From the NCBI GenBank assembly GCA_002928515.1, contig PERI01000007.1, forward strand, positions 1 through 64,000: a DNA stretch of 64,000 nucleotides. The letters run 5' to 3'. The notes beneath the pieces were generated by a model. The model saw only the letters and a list, made by a program, of their open reading frames with translations, had not been told where the DNA came from and made no database searches. Below are positions 634-10,315 of the stretch, piece by piece. How positions within the stretch are numbered: position 1 is the first letter of the stretch; every line of letters begins with the position of its first letter. The position numbers and the translations under genes were made by a program. The DNA is from Hyphomicrobium sp. GTDB lineage: Bacteria; Pseudomonadota; Alphaproteobacteria; Rhizobiales; Hyphomicrobiaceae.

Positions 634-2160
634 ATGAAGTTCTTCCGGGTCGATTCCATCAAATTCAAGAAGCCGGAGCCGAATTCGTGCTTTTTTGTAA
701 ATGACAACTGGGATGACTTCGGTTTCAAAACCAGCTTCGGCGTAATCTTGTGTGATGACCAAGGCTTGCTTCACGACCTGGGCAGCCTGAAAGCTATTCC
801 TCGCGATTGGGCGAATGGTCGCGTGCCTGTGCCCGATGAGTTCAAAAAGCTCGGACGTGAATGGTGCACTCTTGGAGTTGATCGAGATTACTACGTCAAG
901 CTAACCGATATTAAAGAAGACGTTCGCAAAAACTATCTCAAATCAGTTCGAGACTGCGTTTACGATCATACGATATATGAATCATTTAAGAACCAGCAGG
1001 CAATGAAGACATCTTTGTTGCGCGGAGTGCACGAGAAAGATGTCCTAATAACCTTTCCTAGAGTACTGTCTGGCATTGCCAGACGCTCTTCTTTCAAATT
1101 TAATTACGATTTCCACAGTGGTGCGAACAACAAACTTCATAGCTGCAAATTTGAAGTTGATCCGAGATCAAAGCCGCCGACCAACATACATGTTTTAATT
1201 GGTAGGAATGGAGTTGGAAAAACGCGCCTTTTGGCAGGAATGGCCGACGCACTAACGGCAAACAAGGCAACTTCGATCGGAATCCCGGGAAGCTTTAATT
1301 TCGACGAGGCTCATGAGAGGCAGTTTTTAAATCTCATCGTTGTTGCCTACAGCGCCTTTGATAAATTTGACCCTATTCCAATCAAGGTTCGCGAAGGTAA
1401 AGCTGCCATTCCTTACTGTTACATCGGTATCAAAGCACACTCTGCACGAGATGATGTTCTCGACACCCCGTCTGTAACTACCCTTAAAAATAGCGATGAT
1501 TTTAGCCTGGAGTTCAAGACATCTTTGACCGTTGTTCAACGCGATAGCGGCAAGAGAGAGCGATGGCTTAAGGCTCTCAACATTTTATGTTCCGATCCGG
1601 GCATCGCCGAATTCCAAGAACGAGTCGATGATAGCAAAACTGGTTGGGAGGATTTGGCCCAAAGTGTCGAACAGTTTGCTCTTGCAAGTTCTGGGCACAA
1701 GATCGTCCTACTTTCTTTAACACGTCTGGTAGAGCACGTCAGTGATCGTTCGATTGTTTTGCTGGACGAGCCAGAAACACATTTACACCCTCCTCTACTC
1801 GGCTCGTTTATTCGAGCTATATCAGAGCTGCTGATCTCGCAGAATGGAGTGGCGATCGTAGCAACACATTCGCCAGTAGTCCTCCAAGAGGTTCCTTCGA
1901 AATGCGTACTAGTAGTCACGCGCTCTGGCGGTGAGATGTCCATTTCGCGTCCGGACGTAGAGACTTTTGCTGAAAATGTGGGGAGTTTGACCCGAAAGGT
2001 TTTCGGTTTGGAGGTAACTCAAAGCGGATTTTATCGACTTTTAAAACAAGCCGCAGAAGGCCAATCTTTCGAGGAGATAATCAAAGAATTTGATGAACAG
2101 ATTGGAGGAGAGGGTCGTGCTCTAGCTCGTGTCTTTGCGGGCAAAAGGGAAAAAAAATGA
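634..2160 (+). CDS. ptuA: Septu-like defence ATPase (PtuA-like)
   Basis: 508-residue SMC/ABC-like ATPase, the predicted sensor and scaffold of a two-gene Septu-type anti-phage system. The P-loop GRNGVGKT is at residues 190-197. The Walker B motif LLDEPETHLHP has Asp378 and Glu379, and the H-loop region VATHSP follows near 410. This is the OLD/PtuA type of ATPase arm. About 185 residues lie before the P-loop, longer than a bare ATPase head, and this N-terminal part (Trp/Tyr and charge rich) was not recognised. The stop overlaps the ATG of the HNH gene by four bases, so the two are translationally coupled. Codon use is AT-richer than the chromosome to the right, consistent with transfer. Other OLD-like ATPases share the core, so the call rests on the HNH partner. 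The start ATG has only a weak ribosome site. Confidence 0.8.
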   Translation: MKFFRVDSIKFKKPEPNSCFFVNDNWDDFGFKTSFGVILCDDQGLLHDLGSLKAIPRDWANGRVPVPDEFKKLGREWCTLGVDRDYYVKLTDIKEDVRKNYLKSVRDCVYDHTIYESFKNQQAMKTSLLRGVHEKDVLITFPRVLSGIARRSSFKFNYDFHSGANNKLHSCKFEVDPRSKPPTNIHVLIGRNGVGKTRLLAGMADALTANKATSIGIPGSFNFDEAHERQFLNLIVVAYSAFDKFDPIPIKVREGKAAIPYCYIGIKAHSARDDVLDTPSVTTLKNSDDFSLEFKTSLTVVQRDSGKRERWLKALNILCSDPGIAEFQERVDDSKTGWEDLAQSVEQFALASSGHKIVLLSLTRLVEHVSDRSIVLLDEPETHLHPPLLGSFIRAISELLISQNGVAIVATHSPVVLQEVPSKCVLVVTRSGGEMSISRPDVETFAENVGSLTRKVFGLEVTQSGFYRLLKQAAEGQSFEEIIKEFDEQIGGEGRALARVFAGKREKK

Positions 2161-2993
2161 GACACCTTCCACAACCAAACATCGGGCATCGAGAGCTTTT
2201 TATCCGATGTGCTCGACAAACAGCCGCGCAAAACGCACGACAGTCGTTGCTAGCAATGGTGGACCGCATTGTGGCAGCGGGCGAAAGGTATAACACTGCG
2301 GCCGGCGCAAATGAATTTTATGCCGTAGCAAGTATACAGATGGACGATAATGAAAAGAATATTATTCAGGAACTCTATGATCGGCGAATGGCAAGCGTCA
2401 GTGGAAGTGGTCGCTCATCATATGATTTAATTCGAGCCTCTTCTGCAATTTGTCCTTACTGCTCGTTCGGAGAGGTTTGCGAAATAGATCACTTTCTCCC
2501 CAAAAAGGCTTTTCCAGATTTAAACGTCCTTCCCATCAACCTTCTTCCCATCTGTCATCACTGCAATCACCTCAAGCTCGATGCCAAACCTCTTAATGAG
2601 GAACAAACGTTACTGCACCCGTACTTCGATGTTCTTCCTCATACACAACGTTGGCTTTTTGCGACCCTCACAATTGAATTCGAAGGACCAGTTCTCAACT
2701 ATTTTGTGCAGCTTGATGAAGCTACACATGGCTTACTATCTCGTAGACTTCAATTTCACTTCAACCAGCTTAGATTGAGTAGTCGTTTCAGTGTAAGATC
2801 GGCGACCGTTCTCGCAGAACTGGAAGCTGATATCGAAATGCATCTTGAGAGACTTGGTGCTGACGGAATTACCGATCATTTTAACTCTATGGCGCTCCGA
2901 AGTTTCAAATTGCACGGCAATACATTTGAGGGAGCTGCTTATTTTGCGGCCGCGCAATCGCTTCAATACTGCCAAGGCGCATGGAGAAATTGA
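2157..2993 (+). CDS. ptuB: Septu-like HNH nuclease (PtuB-like)
   Basis: 278-residue HNH endonuclease, predicted effector that cleaves nucleic acid when PtuA signals infection. The zinc-binding and catalytic core is visible: Cys99-x2-Cys102, Asp111-His112 followed by Phe-Leu-Pro-Lys, and Cys133-His-His-Cys136-Asn137-His138. The DHFLPK type of start to the HNH fold and the gene order ATPase then HNH match Septu PtuA/PtuB. The C-terminal half (about 150-278) has no motif I can name. It overlaps the upstream ATPase by ATGA. No third gene follows in the same direction, so this is the simple two-gene arrangement. Retron Ec78-type systems use the same pair, but no reverse transcriptase is nearby. 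Confidence 0.82.
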   Translation: MRHLPQPNIGHRELFIRCARQTAAQNARQSLLAMVDRIVAAGERYNTAAGANEFYAVASIQMDDNEKNIIQELYDRRMASVSGSGRSSYDLIRASSAICPYCSFGEVCEIDHFLPKKAFPDLNVLPINLLPICHHCNHLKLDAKPLNEEQTLLHPYFDVLPHTQRWLFATLTIEFEGPVLNYFVQLDEATHGLLSRRLQFHFNQLRLSSRFSVRSATVLAELEADIEMHLERLGADGITDHFNSMALRSFKLHGNTFEGAAYFAAAQSLQYCQGAWRN

Positions 2994-3115
2994 CCCGCGC
3001 AACTCAAATTGATCTCTCTAACTGTCAACTAGGGGATTATTTTATTTTTTATAACCTTTAGCTTAGGTTTCGCATTTGGCTTCGAACCGCCCTCAACGTC
3101 GCCGCCGTTCCCTAA

Positions 3116-3337
3116 AAGGATTTCGAGGAACAGGTCGAAAGCGAAAACCCGACATCGCTCACGGCTCTTGCGCATCAAGGCGCCAAGTGTAGATCGAAGA
3201 CTATCCCAAAAGAAGATCATCTTGAAGGCAGGACGCCCGAGCAGTTCAACGATGCGATGCACATGGCTGCAATGAGCCAACGGGGGCAGCCGCCAAGGAA
3301 CCAAGCGACTGCCCCCTATCCCGGAGCTGCCCAGTAA
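3116..3337 (+). pseudogene. 3' remnant of a broken coding sequence
   Basis: An open frame of about 73 codons ending in TAA at 3335-3337 has an in-frame stop at 3113-3115 just before it and no plausible start. The peptide has a natural composition (many Glu, Gln, Ala and Ser, with a GRTPEQFNDAMHMAA segment and a Pro/Ala-rich end), unlike the low-quality reading of the opposite strand. It looks like the C-terminal end of a larger protein truncated when the defence genes were inserted upstream. Phage terminase or mobilization proteins are candidates by feel only; I do not recognise it. Confidence 0.35.
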
Positions 3338-3360
3338 GCGCTCGCAAGAATGAAAGAAAG

Positions 3361-3456
3361 GGGCCGGATCGGTGCACTTCGATCCGGCCCAACGCACCGG
3401 CCTACAGCCGTGTGGTGCGTTCTACGAGGGTAACGAAAGGGACTAAGCACCCTCGT
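3361..3456. repeat. three tandem perfect stem-loops
   Basis: Hairpin 1 pairs 3361-3371 with 3380-3390 (11 bp, 8-base loop). Hairpin 2 pairs AACGCACC at 3391-3398 with GGTGCGTT at 3414-3421 and has a nested GGC/GCC stem inside. Hairpin 3 pairs ACGAGGGT at 3424-3431 with ACCCTCGT at 3449-3456. The first two abut directly. None is followed by a clear run of T on either strand, so simple intrinsic termination is not convincing. They sit just beyond the 3' end of the five-gene minus-strand operon. They could be a non-coding RNA, an RNA-processing signal or a protein-binding DNA site. Confidence 0.6.
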
Positions 3457-3494
3457 GCAAGCGCGGCCGCGTAGGCGTGCCGCGCAAGTCAGTT

Positions 3495-4163
3495 TCAGTA
3501 ATCGAACGGTCCGCCAAGTGAATCGGTTTTGTCACCACCGCTCGCGACTTCGGTATTGAATTTCTGCACTGCCTTAGACCACGACGACCGCGATCCGCTA
3601 CCGCCACCGGCGCTCATTGGTACGGGATCGCAGCCAAACGATGCGCCCGCGTTTCGCTGTTGCTCAAGCGAAGGCATGACGGCTTGCTCAGGCTCTTTTG
3701 GCGCGCTCGCGAGTAACGTGACCGCAGTCGCAAGATCGATATCAGAGCCGCAGGCAACATAGGCAGCGAAGCGCTCGCGGCCTTCCGCTTGAGGCGACCG
3801 AATGATCGCTGAAATTCGGGCGTTCTCAATCATAAGCTCTGGTGAAAGCAGACCAGCGCGAAGATCAAAATATTTGTGGCCGTGCGGGATAGAAATCTCT
3901 TTGTCCGTTGCCATAGTGGACAAAAATTTGATGGCGACGTCCGCAGCCATGTCGGTTTCTAAAGCAAGGCAACAGGACTGCCGAAAGCGTCCTGCCGTCG
4001 CGTGCGCGGTCAGGATCGAAAGAACGCGCGCGCGATACTCTGCGACCGGATTTTTCGGTTGAGAGGTCGAAGCGCTTTTGGATGCCGGACGCTTCGCTTG
4101 AACGGTCGAAGCGGGCTTGGGTTGTGTGCGTCTTGGATATTGCGTGATGGAATAGCTGGTCAT
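3495..4163 (-). CDS. unknown protein with duplicated phage-protease-tail-like motif
   Basis: 222 residues, last gene of a five-gene minus-strand operon. After a basic, Lys/Pro/Ser-rich start (1-40) come two related units at about 44-88 and 114-157. Each has the pattern Arg-x-x-x-Ile-Leu, then Ala-x-Gly-Arg, then an acidic Asp-x-Ala-x-Ala-x-x-x-Leu helix. This pattern resembles the C-terminal tail often seen on phage S49/ClpP-type head-maturation proteases, but no protease domain is present. A Gly/Ser-rich linker (about 185-192) precedes a short C-terminal end. The start overlaps the upstream stop by ATGA and has an AGG/GGA ribosome site. Function unknown; a phage-structure or capsid-interference role is inference only. 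Confidence 0.6.
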   Translation of the reverse strand: MTSYSITQYPRRTQPKPASTVQAKRPASKSASTSQPKNPVAEYRARVLSILTAHATAGRFRQSCCLALETDMAADVAIKFLSTMATDKEISIPHGHKYFDLRAGLLSPELMIENARISAIIRSPQAEGRERFAAYVACGSDIDLATAVTLLASAPKEPEQAVMPSLEQQRNAGASFGCDPVPMSAGGGSGSRSSWSKAVQKFNTEVASGGDKTDSLGGPFDY

Positions 4164-4696
4164 CGTCCTGCCTCTTGAACTAACGATTGAAGATGCGCGT
4201 CGGTTGCCAGAACGAGCGCAGGCGGTGCGTCAGCGCGGCGAATGATTTCGTGGCCATTGCGTTCGATAACGCGCGCAAGGACTTCTTCGTGCGCCTGCGC
4301 TTGATAGAGTTCGCGATCCACTTCGGCCAACGCCTTTGCCCGCTCTTCATGGGTCATCGATGGGTTGGTCCGATAAAACCCGTCAATGCGGTCGATGATG
4401 ACCTCGCGAATTTTGTCACGACCGACGAGCACGAGAAACGCAAGCAATGCGTCCGGCGATTTAGCTAACTCAACGCTGGGATTTGGCGACGGGCGGACTA
4501 GGCTGCCAATCGAAAAGGAATATCGGTTCGCGCTCTCAACCTCATACCGGTCAAGCGACGTGTCGATTGCAGCAATGGCCGTTTCGCGGTCAAGCGCAGC
4601 ATCGATGATCTGTTGCCGACGATCTGTCAGGCGAACAATATCATCGCGAATAATATTGATATCGGCCGTTTTTGGAGCTGCTTTGGAAAGCCGCAT
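4160..4696 (-). CDS. unknown helical protein, operon gene 4
   Basis: 178 residues counted from the ATG at 4696, chosen because it forms a TAATG start-stop overlap with the upstream gene; a longer reading from 4729 would overlap that gene by 34 bases. The sequence is largely helical and charged (Asp, Glu, Arg, Ala) with no membrane segment or signal peptide. There is no motif I recognise. Its stop overlaps the start of the next gene. Tight packing with its neighbours implies co-translation and a shared complex or pathway. Confidence 0.6.
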   Translation of the reverse strand: MRLSKAAPKTADINIIRDDIVRLTDRRQQIIDAALDRETAIAAIDTSLDRYEVESANRYSFSIGSLVRPSPNPSVELAKSPDALLAFLVLVGRDKIREVIIDRIDGFYRTNPSMTHEERAKALAEVDRELYQAQAHEEVLARVIERNGHEIIRRADAPPALVLATDAHLQSLVQEAGR

Positions 4697-5124
4697 TAGA
4701 ACACCTCTGGCAAGAGCGAGGGCGGGCAAACTAAGCCTTGGTTGACAGCATACTCACGACAGCGCCGCGCGAGCGCCGCGCTCGCATTGCGCGCGCTGAT
4801 CGCATCATTCGCGCGACCTTCGATGTCTGCGATCTCCGCTGTCAGTCCAGCGATGAGCTGCTTGGCAGCGACGGCCTCTTTCAGAACATGAAAGTATTTT
4901 TCGTTGGTCTTGGGATCGATAGGCGTGCCCTCAAGGGCAGCCTTGACCTCATCATCAAACTTGTCGTCGATAGCGTGGGCAGACCGCAAAAAGCTGTATC
5001 GGCGGTCCGCTTCATCACGGCGCTTGCGAAGCTCAAAGGATTGATCGTGCAATCCCGAAATTGTCGCTGCCCGTGTCATAGAAAGGCGTTCGAGCGATAA
5101 AATTCTTGAGGGTTCCAGCTTCAT
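4696..5124 (-). CDS. unknown coiled-coil protein, operon gene 3
   Basis: 142 residues from an ATG at 5124 preceded by GGAG seven bases upstream; a longer in-frame reading to 5286 would run into the preceding gene. Composition suggests two long helices: about 20-50, rich in Arg, Asp and Glu, and about 80-125, with Ala, Glu and Lys heptad-like spacing. Likely a soluble coiled-coil protein. Two such small coiled-coil products in a row (this and the next) recall the accessory genes near terminase and portal genes in alphaproteobacterial prophages, but that is inference. Confidence 0.6.
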   Translation of the reverse strand: MKLEPSRILSLERLSMTRAATISGLHDQSFELRKRRDEADRRYSFLRSAHAIDDKFDDEVKAALEGTPIDPKTNEKYFHVLKEAVAAKQLIAGLTAEIADIEGRANDAISARNASAALARRCREYAVNQGLVCPPSLLPEVF

Positions 5125-5167
5125 CGAGTGCTCCTTTGATCGCTGTATCGACCAGAGGCACTGACAT

Positions 5168-5728
5168 TCAAAGGCCCTCTTGAATGGCAATCGGCAAAAC
5201 TCGAAAGATTTGTCGAGCGCCAAGCGGCTCGACGAAGCCAAGATTGGCGAGCTGCCAATAAGCAGACCATTCGCCGGGCGGTGCATGTTCTAATTGTTGA
5301 TGGCGAGGCAAGATGTCAGAACAGTATCGTTCCCACTTCGCCGCGATCATGCGCGAAGCCGTATGTCGTGACTGCCCGGCACAATCATCGCGCGCGATGA
5401 TGCGCAGGATCGCATCACGCGTCGCGAGACGGGTGCTTTCGCTGACTGATAGCCCGCCATGCCGCCTTGCTTGGATCGCCGCGTCAAGCGAGCCTTGGCA
5501 GCCGTTGAGGGCCCATGCCTCAAGACGCCTGCCCAGCTCGCGAAGATCGGGACGAATGTCATTACGAAGTCGCCAACCAGCATCAAGCGCTGCTGTTGCT
5601 AGACCAACGCCGGACAGCTCGACATGCTCGTCGGGATTAGGTGTGACGTCGCAAGAATAAATTGCGTCGATATCGAGATTGCGCAGCGCCCATATCGGTC
5701 TTGGTAGATCATCGGCCTGATTAGACAT
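5168..5728 (-). CDS. unknown protein, operon gene 2
   Basis: 186 residues, start ATG at 5728 lying inside the last codons of the preceding gene (8-base overlap). Soluble, rich in Ala, Arg and Leu, with a central basic segment and several conserved-looking Trp residues (about positions 13, 52, 72). No signal peptide, membrane helix or known motif was recognised. The opposite strand also has an open frame here, but the overlap pattern and ribosome sites support the minus-strand gene. Confidence 0.6.
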   Translation of the reverse strand: MSNQADDLPRPIWALRNLDIDAIYSCDVTPNPDEHVELSGVGLATAALDAGWRLRNDIRPDLRELGRRLEAWALNGCQGSLDAAIQARRHGGLSVSESTRLATRDAILRIIARDDCAGQSRHTASRMIAAKWERYCSDILPRHQQLEHAPPGEWSAYWQLANLGFVEPLGARQIFRVLPIAIQEGL

Positions 5729-5930
5729 TGCGGCGACGCCCGCGTCTCACGCGCGGGCTCGCCTGCAACCCGTCATTCGAGTGAGTCAGAGCTGCCTGAA
5801 CGTCAAAGGTTGCAAAAAACGCTTGTGTCTCTGCCTCGCTTAGCGCCGGGCCGTCGATATCGACGTTGTCGAGCTTGGCCAGTGCTTCGGCCGAAAGTCG
5901 TTTCAGTGGTGAGGGTTTGTATGAACTCAT
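5721..5930 (-). CDS. small unknown protein, first gene of the operon
   Basis: 69 residues, led by a strong AAGGAG ribosome site five bases before the ATG, which makes this the likely head of the five-gene operon running to 3495. The first half is amphipathic and acidic (Leu-Asp-Asn-Val-Asp-Ile-Asp-Gly-Pro). The C-terminus is very basic (Arg-Arg-Gly-Arg-Arg-Arg), suggesting contact with nucleic acid or an acidic partner. No family recognised. Confidence 0.6.
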   Translation of the reverse strand: MSSYKPSPLKRLSAEALAKLDNVDIDGPALSEAETQAFFATFDVQAALTHSNDGLQASPRVRRGRRRNV

Positions 5931-6232
5931 GCGAACTCCTTTGAATGTTAAAGCTGAAAAAGCCGATGGGACGAAGGCGGAACTCGGTTTCGGGATTGGG
6001 CCTAAATTTCAGCTAAGCCATTGCATTGCATTACGTTTTTGAAAAGAGAAAAAACACTCGAATCGCGGGGGGCTGCGTGACCGCACTACGTCCAGCCGTT
6101 GGAAGGAACCTATGGGCAGGGGGGGTAGCTCACTCGTCACAGCACTCAGCCTCATCCCCTCCGACACATGGCAAGCGCCGCGCCCGCAGGCGCGCGAGTG
6201 CGATGCCATGCAGCCATTGTGTTGTGTGATCA
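5931..6232. other. intergenic region upstream of the five-gene operon
   Basis: About 300 bases between the five-gene operon and the small 80-residue gene. Several short frames on both strands are open but have poor composition and no ribosome sites. The operon promoter is expected here, but I cannot name a convincing -35/-10 pair or any repeat. Confidence 0.4.
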
Positions 6233-6475
6233 TCATCGCGATTGCGCCTTGCCACGATCAGCGTGTCGTTGAGCAACAGCATCAACCTCAGCACGCAATT
6301 GCTGACATGCCTTGACGCGCACTGATTTGGGGAGGCGGGCGAGTGCTTGATCGGCACGTTTGGCATACCGACGCCAGACACTGTCGCTAGGCGAGCGTTG
6401 GATCATCGTCGCGATCAGGACAGGATCGAAGTCGCGATGATTTGACAATGAAAGGACAGTGATCCGATCACTCAT
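6233..6475 (-). CDS. small basic unknown protein
   Basis: 80 residues from the ATG at 6475, preceded by AAGGA eight bases upstream; a second ATG two codons earlier is too close to that site. The protein is basic and Ala/Arg-rich, with a segment SVWRRYAKRADQALARLPKS typical of a DNA-binding or helix-rich small phage protein. It lies directly beside the hexamer repeat array, which could include its promoter. Function unknown. Confidence 0.5.
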   Translation of the reverse strand: MSDRITVLSLSNHRDFDPVLIATMIQRSPSDSVWRRYAKRADQALARLPKSVRVKACQQLRAEVDAVAQRHADRGKAQSR

Positions 6476-6548
6476 TTTCATATTCCTTTGAGGCTTAGCC
6501 GCTTGCGCTCGGGCGGTACGCGCCCGGCGCTTTGCGGCATGGTTGAGG

Positions 6549-6734
6549 GGGACATTTAAGCTCATCTGCATTTCTCTCAAATTAGGTCGGGCAATAGGGG
6601 ACAGGGACATAAGGGACATTACCCCCCTAAAGGGGGGCTAAATGTCCCCCTTAAATGTCCCCTGCTGTCCACCCATTTTTGCCGGGGACATATATTCAAA
6701 ATGTCCCTCATTTGTCCCCATGTGTCCCTGTCCC
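6549..6734. repeat. hexamer iteron array with central GC palindrome (candidate origin)
   Basis: The hexamer GGGACA, or its complement TGTCCC, occurs eleven times in 186 bases. GGGACA starts at 6549, 6598, 6604, 6613 and 6685. TGTCCC starts at 6643, 6656, 6702, 6713, 6723 and 6729. A one-mismatch copy, TGTCCA, is at 6666. The palindrome CCCCCCTAAAGGGGGG at 6622-6637 divides two arms of opposite orientation, so the centre is a large imperfect inverted repeat. The array follows, and partly overlaps, the end of the RepA-like ATPase gene. Repeated short sites beside a replication ATPase are the layout of iteron origins in plasmids and P4-like satellites. An operator for the flanking genes is the alternative. 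Confidence 0.7.
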
Positions 6735-7766
6735 CCTGATCGATATCGTGTCGTCATCAAATTGAATTTTTGGATCGCGCTGAAGTTTTTCGACAATGCG
6801 AGAAATTGCTTTTTTGATCGTGTCGGCTTTTCTGCCTTCATCTGCGAAAGCACTTCTAAGTAGCTGGCGGAGCCGTTCCGCACCAATCGAGCCATCGTTC
6901 CGCTCAATCAGGTCGAGCGCAAGGCTGAGGTCTTTGCTTGGCTTGCTGCGCTGTGTGGAATTGATAGTCGTGCCGCTGTTGCAACCGACGGCAATGACGA
7001 CATCACCGCCATCGTCCCGCGTCGAGTCAGGTACGGCAATGACTTTGAAGTCTGCGAAGTGGCCAACTTCGAGGAAATTTGATTTTACGATTGATAACGA
7101 ATGGCACGACTTCGCCTGCGTGATACGAAGTTCGCAATCTGCGTCAGCAACGACGGCGCTTGATCCGCGAGCGCTTCCGGCGCCATTTTTCGTCAGGTGG
7201 TGGAGTAAAAGAATCGCCACTTGAGGATGGGCATCGCGAATGGTGCGCAGTGCCGATCTTACGGCTGCTGAATCACGCGATGAGTTTTCGTCGAGACTGC
7301 CCGTTGATGCGTGCAGAGTGTCGATGACCAAAAGATCAGTGCCGCCAAATTTTGTTGCAGCTCGCGCTATTTCATCTGCACTCTTGATCAGATCGAACGG
7401 CCTCGTCGTCAGAATGATCGCATCATCGCGCGTGCAATCGAGTGCCTGCAATCGTGCGTTTATCGATGACGCCCGTTCGGCGGCCGCGTACAAAACGCGG
7501 CCCCGTTCGACATGATGGCCTAGAAAATTCTCGCCTTTTGCTACAGAAGCGGCAAGGCGACACGCAAGAACGGATTTTCCGCCGCCTGGACCTGCTGTTA
7601 GTAGGATGACATCGCCCCGGCCGATGAGCCCGGCTACAAGCTCGGAGCGCGGTGCAAAGGCACGCTGATCACCGACGCGCACAAAAAATTCAAGAGGCTC
7701 CTGATGGCTATACGGAGACGCCTTTGGCGTTCCCGCAACGGCAAGCTTTTTCAACGCTGCTGACAT
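6708..7766 (-). CDS. RepA-like AAA ATPase (replicative helicase family)
   Basis: 352-residue RecA-fold ATPase of the AAA_25/RepA hexameric helicase type, expected to unwind or load on the element's own origin. Walker A GPGGGKS is at residues 59-65. Glu97 lies in YAAAERA, the expected position of the catalytic glutamate. Walker B LLVIDT ends in Asp149. A Ser/Gly-rich strand and LLLHH follow near 185, as in this family. The C-terminal 80 residues look like a helical or winged-helix tail. Its last codons lie inside the hexamer array. The start at 7766 has only a distant GGAG; another ATG overlaps in a different frame. Upstream is the AlpA-like gene. No separate primase gene was seen nearby. Confidence 0.75.
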   Translation of the reverse strand: MSAALKKLAVAGTPKASPYSHQEPLEFFVRVGDQRAFAPRSELVAGLIGRGDVILLTAGPGGGKSVLACRLAASVAKGENFLGHHVERGRVLYAAAERASSINARLQALDCTRDDAIILTTRPFDLIKSADEIARAATKFGGTDLLVIDTLHASTGSLDENSSRDSAAVRSALRTIRDAHPQVAILLLHHLTKNGAGSARGSSAVVADADCELRITQAKSCHSLSIVKSNFLEVGHFADFKVIAVPDSTRDDGGDVVIAVGCNSGTTINSTQRSKPSKDLSLALDLIERNDGSIGAERLRQLLRSAFADEGRKADTIKKAISRIVEKLQRDPKIQFDDDTISIRGTGTHGDK

Positions 7767-7839
7767 TCATCGCACTCACGTTTTTCTCCTGCCGTGGAAT
7801 CAAGAGGGCTGATGGAAGCGCCATCAATGGCGCGATGGA

Positions 7840-8046
7840 TTAAGCGGCTTCGCGACGCGCATCGGCGATGCGGCGCTCGATAAGCTGATCAATTTCGTCG
7901 CTTGGGAAAAGCGTTCTGCGGCCGAACTTGACGCGCGTCAGACCTTCCTCGCGAACAAGGCGCCAAACATAGGTTCGGCCGACGCCGAGACGCGCGGCAA
8001 CGTCGCGATCACTAAGCAGGCTTTTCGGTTTTAATTCGTTTCGCAT
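7840..8046 (-). CDS. AlpA/excisionase-like helix-turn-helix protein
   Basis: 68 residues from the ATG at 8046, with GAGG five bases upstream. A MerR/AlpA-type winged helix-turn-helix covers about residues 10-31 (Leu-Ser-Asp-Arg-Asp-Val-Ala-Ala-Arg-Leu-Gly-Val-Gly-Arg-Thr-Tyr-Val-Trp), followed by Val-Lys-Phe-Gly-Arg-Arg and a short C-terminal helix. Proteins of this size beside an integrase act as excisionase or as activator of integrase and replication genes in P4-like satellites. Both roles fit here, between the integrase and the RepA-like gene. Confidence 0.75.
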   Translation of the reverse strand: MRNELKPKSLLSDRDVAARLGVGRTYVWRLVREEGLTRVKFGRRTLFPSDEIDQLIERRIADARREAA

Positions 8047-8241
8047 TACGACCTCACGCACGAGAATTGGAATCGGCGCTAACCACCGACGCGCATTAGA
8101 GAGCACGAAACAAAACGGTCATGAACTTCATTGTGGCAGTTATTGTGGTGGCAAACGCAACCGGCACAAGATGTAGTACTGGTGGCAACACTTGCGCAGG
8201 GCATTGCGAGCGCGCGATTAAGCGCGCTCGCGTCTGCAAAT

Positions 8242-8580
8242 TTAGTTGTGCTGCTGCCAATTTTGCGGTGGTCGAACATCTTGGTAAGTCAGCTCGACTG
8301 GGCCGAATTTGTTGAGCCCATGTAATTCGGCAACTGCAACATTGCCGAGGGCTTTGGGACGCTGCGCCTCTGCGATGGCCGCGTCGATATAGATTGCGAC
8401 CACGCCGCCTGAGAACCAGCTCGTGAGCATCGTCACAACCGCCGCGCGGTCTGTAAGATCGATGTGGTTCTTTTTTAGGATTTCGCCCATAAAATTCGCG
8501 ATAGCGCCGCGCCAATCGGCAGATTTTTCTGCGGACAATACCTCGTGCCTTTCGCCATAAACTTTGAAACCTTCCAGCAT
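8242..8580 (-). CDS. unknown small protein beside the integrase
   Basis: 112 residues. The ATG at 8580 is preceded by GGAGG seven bases upstream, a strong site that selects this frame over a competing 167-codon frame. The protein is soluble with a central hydrophobic stretch around residues 48-65 (Val-Val-Thr-Met-Leu...Val-Val-Ala-Ile-Tyr), too interrupted for a sure membrane helix. No family recognised. It lies between the integrase and the AlpA-like gene in the early module. Confidence 0.55.
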   Translation of the reverse strand: MLEGFKVYGERHEVLSAEKSADWRGAIANFMGEILKKNHIDLTDRAAVVTMLTSWFSGGVVAIYIDAAIAEAQRPKALGNVAVAELHGLNKFGPVELTYQDVRPPQNWQQHN

Positions 8581-8619
8581 CTTTTACGCCTCCACTCACA
8601 CAGCCCGCATGATTACGGG

Positions 8620-9798
8620 TTACCGCCGCGCCACTTCACCGACGCAAAACTGGCACCACTGATCTAATAGCTGACGTCGCTTTTCGAGGTGGCTTGTCCT
8701 TAAATAGGCTCTCCGAACTTTGTTGCGGTCGGTATGAGCTAGGCACGCCTCGACGACCTCATTCGGAACATCGGTCAGTTCGGCTGCCCAATCACTAAAA
8801 GCGGATCGAAAGCCGTGTACGGTCACGGCACAGCCCATGATCTTGATGACTTTGGTCATCGTCATGTCGGACAAACGCGCGCCGAGTTTGAAGCCGGGGA
8901 AAAGCAAATCGCTAGCGCCCGCGTCGGCCATGTGAGGTAAGGATCGCAGCTCTTTCAAAATTTGCAGCGCTCTGCTCGACAGCGGCACTTCGTGTTGTCG
9001 TCCTGCTTTCATCCTTTCCGCTGGTATGACCCAAAGCCCGGCTTTCTCGTCGATCTCATCCCAGGTCGCGCCGCGCGTTTCGCCGCTACGCGCGACCGTG
9101 AGCACGGTCCATTCGACAGCAAGACGGACAACCGCGCTTGTGCGCTCGAAAGAACGCAGGCTGGTCATGAACTGAGGCAGGTCGGCAAACGGCAGGGCCG
9201 CGAAATGCTTGACCTCAGCCGTCTGCCTTGGAAGGCCAGCGGATAATGATCGAGGGCCTTCGGTTTCGCGAATGCCAGCGGAATGCGCCCAATCGCAGAC
9301 CGCGACGATCCGCTGTCGGACGCGCCGGGCTGTTTCCGGGCGTTGGTTCCAGATTGGTAGTAATACGCCACGAATGCTCGCAGCATCGAGATTTGCAATC
9401 GGTGCAGAGCCGATCTTTGCGAACGCAAACCGTTCAAGAGTGCTGATCCACTGCGCAGCATGTTTTTGATTTCGCCACGAATGCTCGCGCTCTTTGTGGA
9501 CCATCCGCGCGGCTTCTTCGAACGTCATCCCAATGAAGTTTTGACGCTTGCGCTCGGTTTGCGGGTCTAGCCCATCGCGAACCATGCGGCGGATTTCATC
9601 GGCCTTATCGCGCGCCTCTGCCAACGTCACGTTGGCGGCTGATCCACAGCCGAACTCACGCCGACGACCGGCGACCTGAATTCGTAGCGTCCACTTTTTT
9701 GACCCATCGGCGCTGATGACTAAGCGCAGTCCGTCGCCGTCATCGTATTTGCCGGGCCGCTTTTCGCTTTTGACTTTGAGTGCTGTTAGCTTGCCCAA
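8620..9798 (-). CDS. int: P4-type tyrosine integrase
   Basis: Site-specific recombinase expected to insert and excise this element at a tRNA-Ser 3' end. The N-terminal arm-binding domain of the DUF4102 type is visible (DDGDGLRL, then KKWTLRI), followed by a SAM-like core-binding domain and the catalytic domain. Catalytic residues, numbered from the start used here, are about Arg237 (ARSGE), His328-x-x-Arg331 (HGFR), His355 and Tyr365. I chose the TTG at 9798 because GGAG stands six bases upstream; a longer TTG start at 9849 lacks a site. It appears intact. It reads away from the attachment core at 9959-9972. Confidence 0.88.
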   Translation of the reverse strand: MGKLTALKVKSEKRPGKYDDGDGLRLVISADGSKKWTLRIQVAGRRREFGCGSAANVTLAEARDKADEIRRMVRDGLDPQTERKRQNFIGMTFEEAARMVHKEREHSWRNQKHAAQWISTLERFAFAKIGSAPIANLDAASIRGVLLPIWNQRPETARRVRQRIVAVCDWAHSAGIRETEGPRSLSAGLPRQTAEVKHFAALPFADLPQFMTSLRSFERTSAVVRLAVEWTVLTVARSGETRGATWDEIDEKAGLWVIPAERMKAGRQHEVPLSSRALQILKELRSLPHMADAGASDLLFPGFKLGARLSDMTMTKVIKIMGCAVTVHGFRSAFSDWAAELTDVPNEVVEACLAHTDRNKVRRAYLRTSHLEKRRQLLDQWCQFCVGEVARR

Positions 9799-9810
9799 TG
9801 CTGTCTCCGC

Positions 9811-9832
9811 CCCCCACTTGGTCCCCCACTTG
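9811..9832. repeat. tandem 10-mer at the integrase start
   Basis: CCCCCACTTG occurs twice, at 9811-9820 and 9823-9832, one copy every 12 bp. The pair lies just upstream of the integrase GGAG site and TTG start used here, so a protein bound to it could block transcription or translation of the integrase. An arm-type integrase site or an autorepression operator is plausible; neither can be shown from sequence alone. Confidence 0.45.
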
Positions 9833-9908
9833 AGCGCGAATTTGGGCAAACGTCAACGGACGGTCAAGAACACGAAGTTTCAAAAAAAGGACATTTTGCA
9901 AGGGTTTT

Positions 9909-9972: not shown

Positions 9973-10174
9973 TACATTCTGAATTTTGCTTAGATCACTG
10001 ACGCAGAATTGAGTGAAACCAACTAATACTTCGTTCCAGCGAAAACACATATCAGTGTGACACCCCTACACAAGATTGCATCTGCACATCACATGCTTGC
10101 CGATATTTCACTTGCCGCACGGCCCCCAAATCAGATTGCATGATGTGGCCGACAGCATCAGTCGTGCCGCGTAG

Positions 10175-10312
10175 TTGTTGCTCCCGGATATACGGGTTCA
10201 ACCTCTCCCCCGAGGTTGTCATCGGTGATGGCAGAACACAGCCGTCCCCATAGTGGTTCTGTCAGAGCGATAAGCTCAAAAGAGAGCGGCCAAAAGTGCC
10301 GCTCTCTTTTTG
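10175..10312 (+). ncRNA. probable structured small RNA with intrinsic terminator
   Basis: Four stem-loops follow each other. CCCG/CGGG is at 10183-10196. A perfect 7-bp stem CAACCTC/GAGGTTG at 10199-10218 has a TCCCCC loop. GCAGAAC pairs with GTTCTGT over 10231-10262. A 10-bp GC-rich terminator is followed by T-rich sequence. No open frame fits. The C-rich loop could pair with purine-rich ribosome sites, as in anti-Shine-Dalgarno small RNAs. The 5' end and promoter were not identified. It does not match 4.5S, tmRNA or RNase P RNA as far as I can recall their cores. Confidence 0.55.
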
Positions 10313-10315
10313 TTT
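10277..10315 (+). terminator. strong intrinsic terminator
   Basis: AGAGAGCGGC at 10281-10290 pairs perfectly with GCCGCTCTCT at 10298-10307 around a seven-base loop and is followed by TTTTTGTTTA. On the plus strand it ends the small RNA candidate. The A-rich flank on the left would also give some termination on the minus strand. Confidence 0.85.

Follow-up and report, generated by a model that had tools for sequence, protein, structure and literature searches.

The origins of PICIs are described as lying directly 3' of the rep gene, with two sets of iterons flanking an AT-rich region, and the Gram-negative PICIs as being transcribed in one direction, those of E. coli encoding int and alpA (PMC6092414). 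The origin of RSF1010 (IncQ) joins the RepA helicase to iterons and to the ssiA and ssiB hairpins (PMC4434180; PMC4234260). In satellite phage P4 the helicase itself, protein alpha, is reported to bind the origin repeats through a winged helix, and pRN1, whose replication protein carries a winged helix at its C-terminus, depends for its replication on a stem-loop lying directly 3' of that protein's gene (PMC4234260). The RepA origins of mycobacterial prophages appear different (PMC7157519).

The locus considered here lies in a window of 64,000 nucleotides from Hyphomicrobium sp., the whole stretch of DNA that was analysed. In it, an array of GGGACA/TGTCCC hexamers surrounds a palindrome at the end of a gene for a RepA-like helicase homologue (Table 1). 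Judged from sequence, the array is very probably where an integrated, satellite-like mobile element starts its replication (ori), with the overlapped helicase as the initiator. As in the published outline of the PICIs, int, an AlpA-like gene, the helicase, the candidate origin and small genes lie in one direction, two sets of iterons flank a centre, and the array adjoins the 3' end of the replication gene. However, the centre here is a GC-rich perfect hairpin with a four-base AT heart, whereas that of the described PICI origins is AT-rich, and the putative initiator here has a predicted RSF1010-RepA/RecA fold. RSF1010 RepA is the closest solved structure to the helicase, and its origin also has iterons and short hairpins, oriV being compared by its description. 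In RSF1010, however, iteron binding and priming at the hairpins fall to other proteins, RepC and RepB' respectively, while here the helicase has a predicted winged helix of its own. A helicase with a winged helix beside origin repeats also recalls P4 as it has been described, the winged helix being predicted here and its binding putative. P4 alpha is an SF3-type helicase, and to our knowledge the P4 origin is not built round a hairpin of the CC-TTTA-GG type. The likeness to pRN1 and Bordetella phage BIP-1 lies in the stem-loop 3' of the replication gene and in the winged helix, but these have an SF3 helicase and a stem-loop of about 100 bases, and no iteron structure was found for them (PMC4234260). 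By analogy, the candidate origin would work like those of PICIs, P4 and RSF1010, and it is assigned to none of them.

Table 1. Features in and around the hexamer array, with positions in the window.
Feature	Position	Strand	Remarks
PtuA/PDC-M01A ATPase	634..2160	+	defence-like cargo, gene 1
PDC-M01B protein	2157..2993	+	defence-like cargo, gene 2
Four small frames (222, 189, 196 and 186 aa)	3495..5728	-	no informative Pfam match; two with weak PHROGs matches
ORF, 128 aa	6233..6619	-	no informative family match; a single Pfam hit below threshold
Iteron array	6549..6734	.	11 exact GGGACA/TGTCCC copies, 10 of 11 facing inward toward the palindrome
GGGACA copies (starts)	6549, 6598, 6604, 6613, 6685	+	
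Perfect palindrome CCCCCC-TAAA-GGGGGG	6622..6637	.	CCCCCC-TTTA-GGGGGG read with the helicase gene; hairpin core
TGTCCC copies (starts)	6643, 6656, 6702, 6713, 6723, 6729	-	
RepA-like AAA_25 hexameric-helicase homologue	6708..7766	-	352 aa; predicted C-terminal winged helix, residues 278-343
AlpA/excisionase-type helix-turn-helix protein	7840..8106	-	HTH_17, phrog_66, TIGR01764
ORF, 112 aa	8242..8580	-	no family match
Tyrosine integrase	8620..9849	-	Arm-DNA-bind_3, Phage_int_M, Phage_integrase

An earlier note on this DNA had described eleven exact copies of one hexamer in 186 bases, arranged in two opposed arms around a perfect GC palindrome and placed directly at the 3' end of a RepA-like ATPase gene. 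Each part of this description was confirmed. All four copies of the left arm are on the (+) strand and six of the seven in the right arm on the (-) strand, the copy at 6685 being the sole exception, and the palindrome is exact. Three iterons (6713, 6723 and 6729) lie inside the last codons of the ATPase coding sequence and the copy at 6702 just past its stop. On the other side, the first possible start of the 128-aa ORF falls within the array, and its true start may be further downstream. As single-stranded DNA, positions 6596-6663 fold at -20.1 kcal/mol (z -3.9), a value equalled by 2 of 200 shuffles.

The exceptional feature of GGGACA is its clustering, since the 21 copies in the 64-kb window against 20.0 expected indicate no overall enrichment. 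Over a stretch of 510 bases spanning the gene end, the commonest hexamer occurs 11 times, while the best hexamer of shuffled sequences averages 3.4 copies and none of 200 dinucleotide shuffles reached 11. Same-direction GGGACA pairs no more than 30 bases apart occur at eight places in the 2.92-Mb genome, six of them in the array and two as isolated pairs, and GGGACA...TGTCCC pairs at the same spacing, searched in the inward orientation, occur in the array only. The expectation that the hexamer would be less frequent elsewhere in the genome was thus borne out for clusters, no second one comparable to the array being found by these two pair searches, but not for the total in the window.

The best solved-structure matches of the helicase model are to RSF1010 RepA, namely 1nlf and 1g8y (E 6e-11 and 1e-10; TM 0.64 and 0.66, respectively, by target length). 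On this model the protein has the RepA fold of hexameric helicases, and formation of a hexamer is predicted. The C-terminal winged helix is predicted at a pLDDT of about 84-92, and the chain ends in GTGTHGDK. No primase domain was recognised in the window helicase by a family profile search, and in relatives the same helicase is preceded by a Toprim, Prim-Pol or DnaB-N domain or by none that was recognised (six proteins). A short-exact-peptide search of genome contigs and of viral contigs returned no close relatives of the window helicase, which says little because the search requires short exact peptides. Plasmids gave five distant matches.

Relatives at the level of the order were found by the helicase alone, with a match of E 1e-10 or better in 30 of 397 genomes, the window's own included; the six other genomes of the same genus in this search gave no helicase match. 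One locus (L008) was dropped for too little DNA past the gene, leaving 29. The commonest hexamer from -60 to +450 of the gene end, compared with 200 dinucleotide shuffles at p 0.01, formed a significant array past the helicase gene in 18 of the 29 loci, the window's included, against one of 29 control windows inside the same genes. The other 11 were negative (L006, L009, L012, L014, L018, L020, L023 and L024-L027), L006 failing on its commonest hexamer and yet having GGGACA copies around a hairpin of this kind. The hairpin core of the window also recurs beside related helicases. An inverted repeat of at least five pairs centred on CC-[AT]3-6-GG followed the helicase gene in 13 of the 29 loci and was present in 2 of 142 windows taken elsewhere in these loci. 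Array and core hairpin stood together in 10 of the 29, of which two (L004 and L016) are doubtful on account of missing iterons on one side and of a hairpin built of two iterons.

The hexamer itself is not conserved. At least four GGGACA copies within 250 bases were present only in L001, L006, L010, L011 and L017 among the 30 order loci, and in L010 they lie at the 5' end of the gene, with GAGACA at its 3' end instead. One uniform hexamer was therefore rejected, since GGGACA clusters in 5 of 30 loci and other lineages use other hexamers. Thus, of the suggestion that the array would be kept beside homologues of this ATPase, the layout stood, in that inward iterons, a central hairpin and the helicase 3' end recur together, while the letters of the iteron vary by lineage. 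The further proposal of an iteron-type origin beside a RepA-like ATPase is favoured by the comparison, given the structural match to RSF1010 RepA and the frequency of arrays past the gene relative to the controls.

The same layout is present in viral contigs. Among 429 relatives of one viral helicase, 80 were kept. A C4+/G4+ palindrome lay past the gene in 25 of the 73 loci with enough DNA (L290, whose match was cut, being left out) against 20 of 728 control windows. The CC-[AT]-GG hairpin lay past the helicase in 49 of 72 loci against 8 of 713 control windows, the count omitting L286, L289, L290, L301, L311, L332, L354 and L360 as cut or too short. Many of these loci are near-duplicates, so that the counts overstate the number of independent events. 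The hairpin centres seen were TTTA, TATA or TTAA, with TTTA in 34 and TATA in 10 of the 49.

Two scans used DNA only. In viral contigs, the hexamer together with a C5...G5 palindrome was matched in at least 120 loci, and among the matches listed 14 of 120 packed at least seven hexamers into 200 bases. For 11 of these 14 listed loci the distance of the palindrome from a helicase frame's 3' end was -33 to +366 bases; by eye the 11 represent about seven lineages, and six of the 14 are close kin. Of the remaining 106 loci listed, three (L134, L136 and L047) had a helicase end within -100 to +600, with other hexamers present in L134 and L136. The 16-base palindrome alone was also matched in at least 120 loci, and 121 loci were analysed (L161 repeats L051). 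Among those listed, 53 of the 121 had the palindrome at -100 to +600 from a helicase 3' end, against 6.8 expected from random places in the same loci, and with a helicase match of E 1e-6 or better the figure was 45 against 5.4. The other 68 listed include contig edges and phages without a helicase detected that near. In four AT-rich phage contigs (L169, L170, L208 and L264), CCCCCC-TTTA-GGGGGG stands some 600 bases away from helicase matches that are no more than weak; this may be the same hairpin served by a different initiator.

Among named phages, 11 of 19 had an array directly past the helicase gene, some of them being close kin: Salicola CGphi29 (GGGACA), Idiomarinaceae 1N2-2 (GGTACA), Alteromonas PB15 and XX1924 (GGTTCA), Rhizobium 16-3 and RHph_X2_25 (CGTGAC), RHph_Y3_1 (TGGGAA), Roseobacter CRP-823 and CRP-811 (CTACAA), ct3Oc712 (GTCCCA) and BcepGomr (AAAATA). 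The array test was negative in Mae-JY30, ctyzp037, Acadian, Wilde, Caulobacter RW, ct76p945, Wolbachia WO (p 0.015) and Vibrio 1.210.O, these eight including both actinobacteriophages tried. The hairpin in its strict form was present in 5 of the first 11 named phages and in 6 of 790 windows. In Vibrio phage 1.210.O (L371:46138-46340), six CGGACA/TGTCCG copies surround a CCCCC-TATATATA-GGGGG palindrome about 0.85-1.05 kb and one gene beyond the helicase, indicating that the origin-like site is separable from the gene. In only three of seven phages did cumulative GC skew reach its minimum 2.5 kb or less from the array, and GC skew was dropped as an origin marker.

The orientation of the iterons and their link to the helicase tail were followed in larger sets. 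In 71 loci chosen beforehand for an array or a hairpin, 66 had the hairpin and 60 of these also a hexamer at least five times, the hexamer picked in L293 being no true iteron. The helicase-proximal arm held 257 inward and 110 outward copies and the far arm 133 inward and 5 outward, figures that are flattering to the far arm because its majority defined the orientation. Iteron classes could be compared with the protein after 63 of 72 viral loci had been sorted into seven classes. The tail of the helicase (the last 96 reference columns) had a mean identity of 0.80 within classes and 0.52 between them, against 0.89 and 0.81 for the core. For pairs with a core identity of 0.6-0.8, the tail was 0.60 identical within classes (78 pairs) and 0.42 between (895 pairs). 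Similar tails despite different iterons were found for the GGGAAC/GGTAAC (0.81) and CGGACC/CGTACC classes. A tail that specifies the iteron would fit these identities, imperfectly and in a comparison uncorrected for phylogeny.

Based on these comparisons, a course of initiation can be proposed. The element would first be excised by its integrase and excisionase, as the integrase and excisionase-like genes suggest. Helicase subunits would then bind the GGGACA iterons through the C-terminal winged helix, to which both the fold and the divergence of the tail between iteron classes point. The two inward arms would position two helicase assemblies, one on each side of the C6-TTTA-G6 palindrome, and the palindrome would melt or extrude as a hairpin, exposing single strands for the loading of two hexamers. 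From its symmetry, such paired loading would start two forks. Priming is assigned to a host primase such as DnaG because no primase domain was recognised in the window helicase, and single-stranded initiation by that host enzyme may occur. A primase-specific hairpin in the sense of RSF1010 is less likely, since the differing N-terminal domains of the relatives argue against such a site; that the layout accompanies all of them suggests a role in helicase loading and not one type of primase.

The position of the palindrome just past the helicase gene and its richness in GC are also those of an intrinsic terminator, in this case of the helicase operon, with the hexamers binding an unrelated regulator. 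However, when the 66 hairpins were examined for a T-rich stretch behind them (at least six T in nine), the coding strand gave no case and the opposite strand a single one, which makes these hairpins unlike intrinsic terminators. Iterons moreover flank both sides, and a terminator has no need of a recurring TTTA or TATA centre, so that this explanation is very improbable. A site of partition (centromere-like) or incompatibility, or an array for control of copy number, is a distinct proposal in which the array is not the start site itself. Iteron arrays can act in control or partition besides initiation, and sites of either kind would have a similar layout. The element proteins scanned gave no match to a ParA or ParB family, though, and iterons that face inward on a hairpin where a helicase gene ends have the form expected of an origin. 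While such a site in place of an origin is very improbable, a control role may exist alongside initiation.

It is very improbable that the array serves in packaging, as a cos or pac site to which a small terminase binds and which lets the satellite borrow the capsids of a helper. Large-terminase domains do occur a few kb from the helicase in three of the six order-level stretches fetched (L391, L392 and L396), and the excisionase-like protein has a weak PHROGs match to a terminase small subunit (E 9e-5). Nevertheless, the neighbour that recurs is the helicase, and the element proteins scanned (634-9849) include none that could be confidently assigned to a terminase or capsid family. In the annotation of phage 16-3, cos, attP and the repressor operators all lie outside the array, with cos at the genome end about 3.5 kb away.

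The earlier note could match the hexamer and cruciform design to no described origin. The general plan resembles that of the PICI origins as published (PMC6092414). In the open-access literature, subscription papers being mostly outside this scope, no account was found that combines a RepA-fold helicase bearing a winged helix with variable iterons and a near-constant CC-TTTA-GG hairpin, and neither the letters of the palindrome nor a tie of GGGACA to a phage replication origin was found in the open-access literature searched. The combination of hairpin and helicase could therefore be a class of its own, although its general plan is already published. The chances are about even that these loci represent a widespread, undescribed class of origin, in which a RepA-like helicase that loads itself and has an interchangeable winged-helix tail would be paired with lineage-specific inward hexamers, two of its rings loading symmetrically at a near-constant CC-TTTA-GG hairpin. 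The hairpin would be kept while N-terminal priming domains and iterons are swapped, giving a portable replication cassette of changeable specificity.

Many environmental phages and satellites lack a known replication start. If the proposal is correct, the origins of phages and islands with a RepA-like winged-helix helicase could often be read from sequence, as hexamers that face inward on a CC-TTTA-GG hairpin shortly beyond the helicase gene, which for satellites would help to predict which elements replicate by themselves. Phage 16-3, with its mapped cos, attP and operators, is an annotated phage suited to testing the idea. The question is also raised of how a RecA-fold ring might load at a symmetric hairpin without a separate loader.

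The order of the surrounding genes resembles that of Gram-negative PICIs (PMC6092414). The integrase, the AlpA-like gene, the helicase and the four small frames share one strand, with the array between them, and the defence-like genes lie on the other, forming a candidate two-gene defence system that resembles Septu. The element proteins scanned gave no match to a primase or RepC-like family, several of the small frames being without any match. The 222-aa protein (3495-4163) has weak PHROGs matches (E 1e-8 to 1e-3) over residues 110-174, including head maturation protease and scaffold families, and it might be a capsid-related satellite gene or reflect an effect of composition. Because the contig begins at window position 1, the left end of the element and its att sites are outside view, and a direct-repeat search found no convincing att pair. 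A block of about 190 bases (~10123-10315) is conserved at 76-86% in 16 of 21 other genomes of the genus and, with no Rfam match at the gathering score, is perhaps an unlisted small RNA. The sequence flanking this block in one relative was not found in this genome, in searches without a positive control, so that the block did not place the integration site.

A tblastn search (1e-4) of the fetched loci with the element proteins of the window gave no match beyond integrase and helicase. In one order-level genome (L395), an integrase 40% identical to that of the window accompanies a stand-alone RepA-like helicase, CGGACA iterons and a CACCCC-TAAA-GGGGTG hairpin, and this locus is a candidate for a second integrative element of similar plan.
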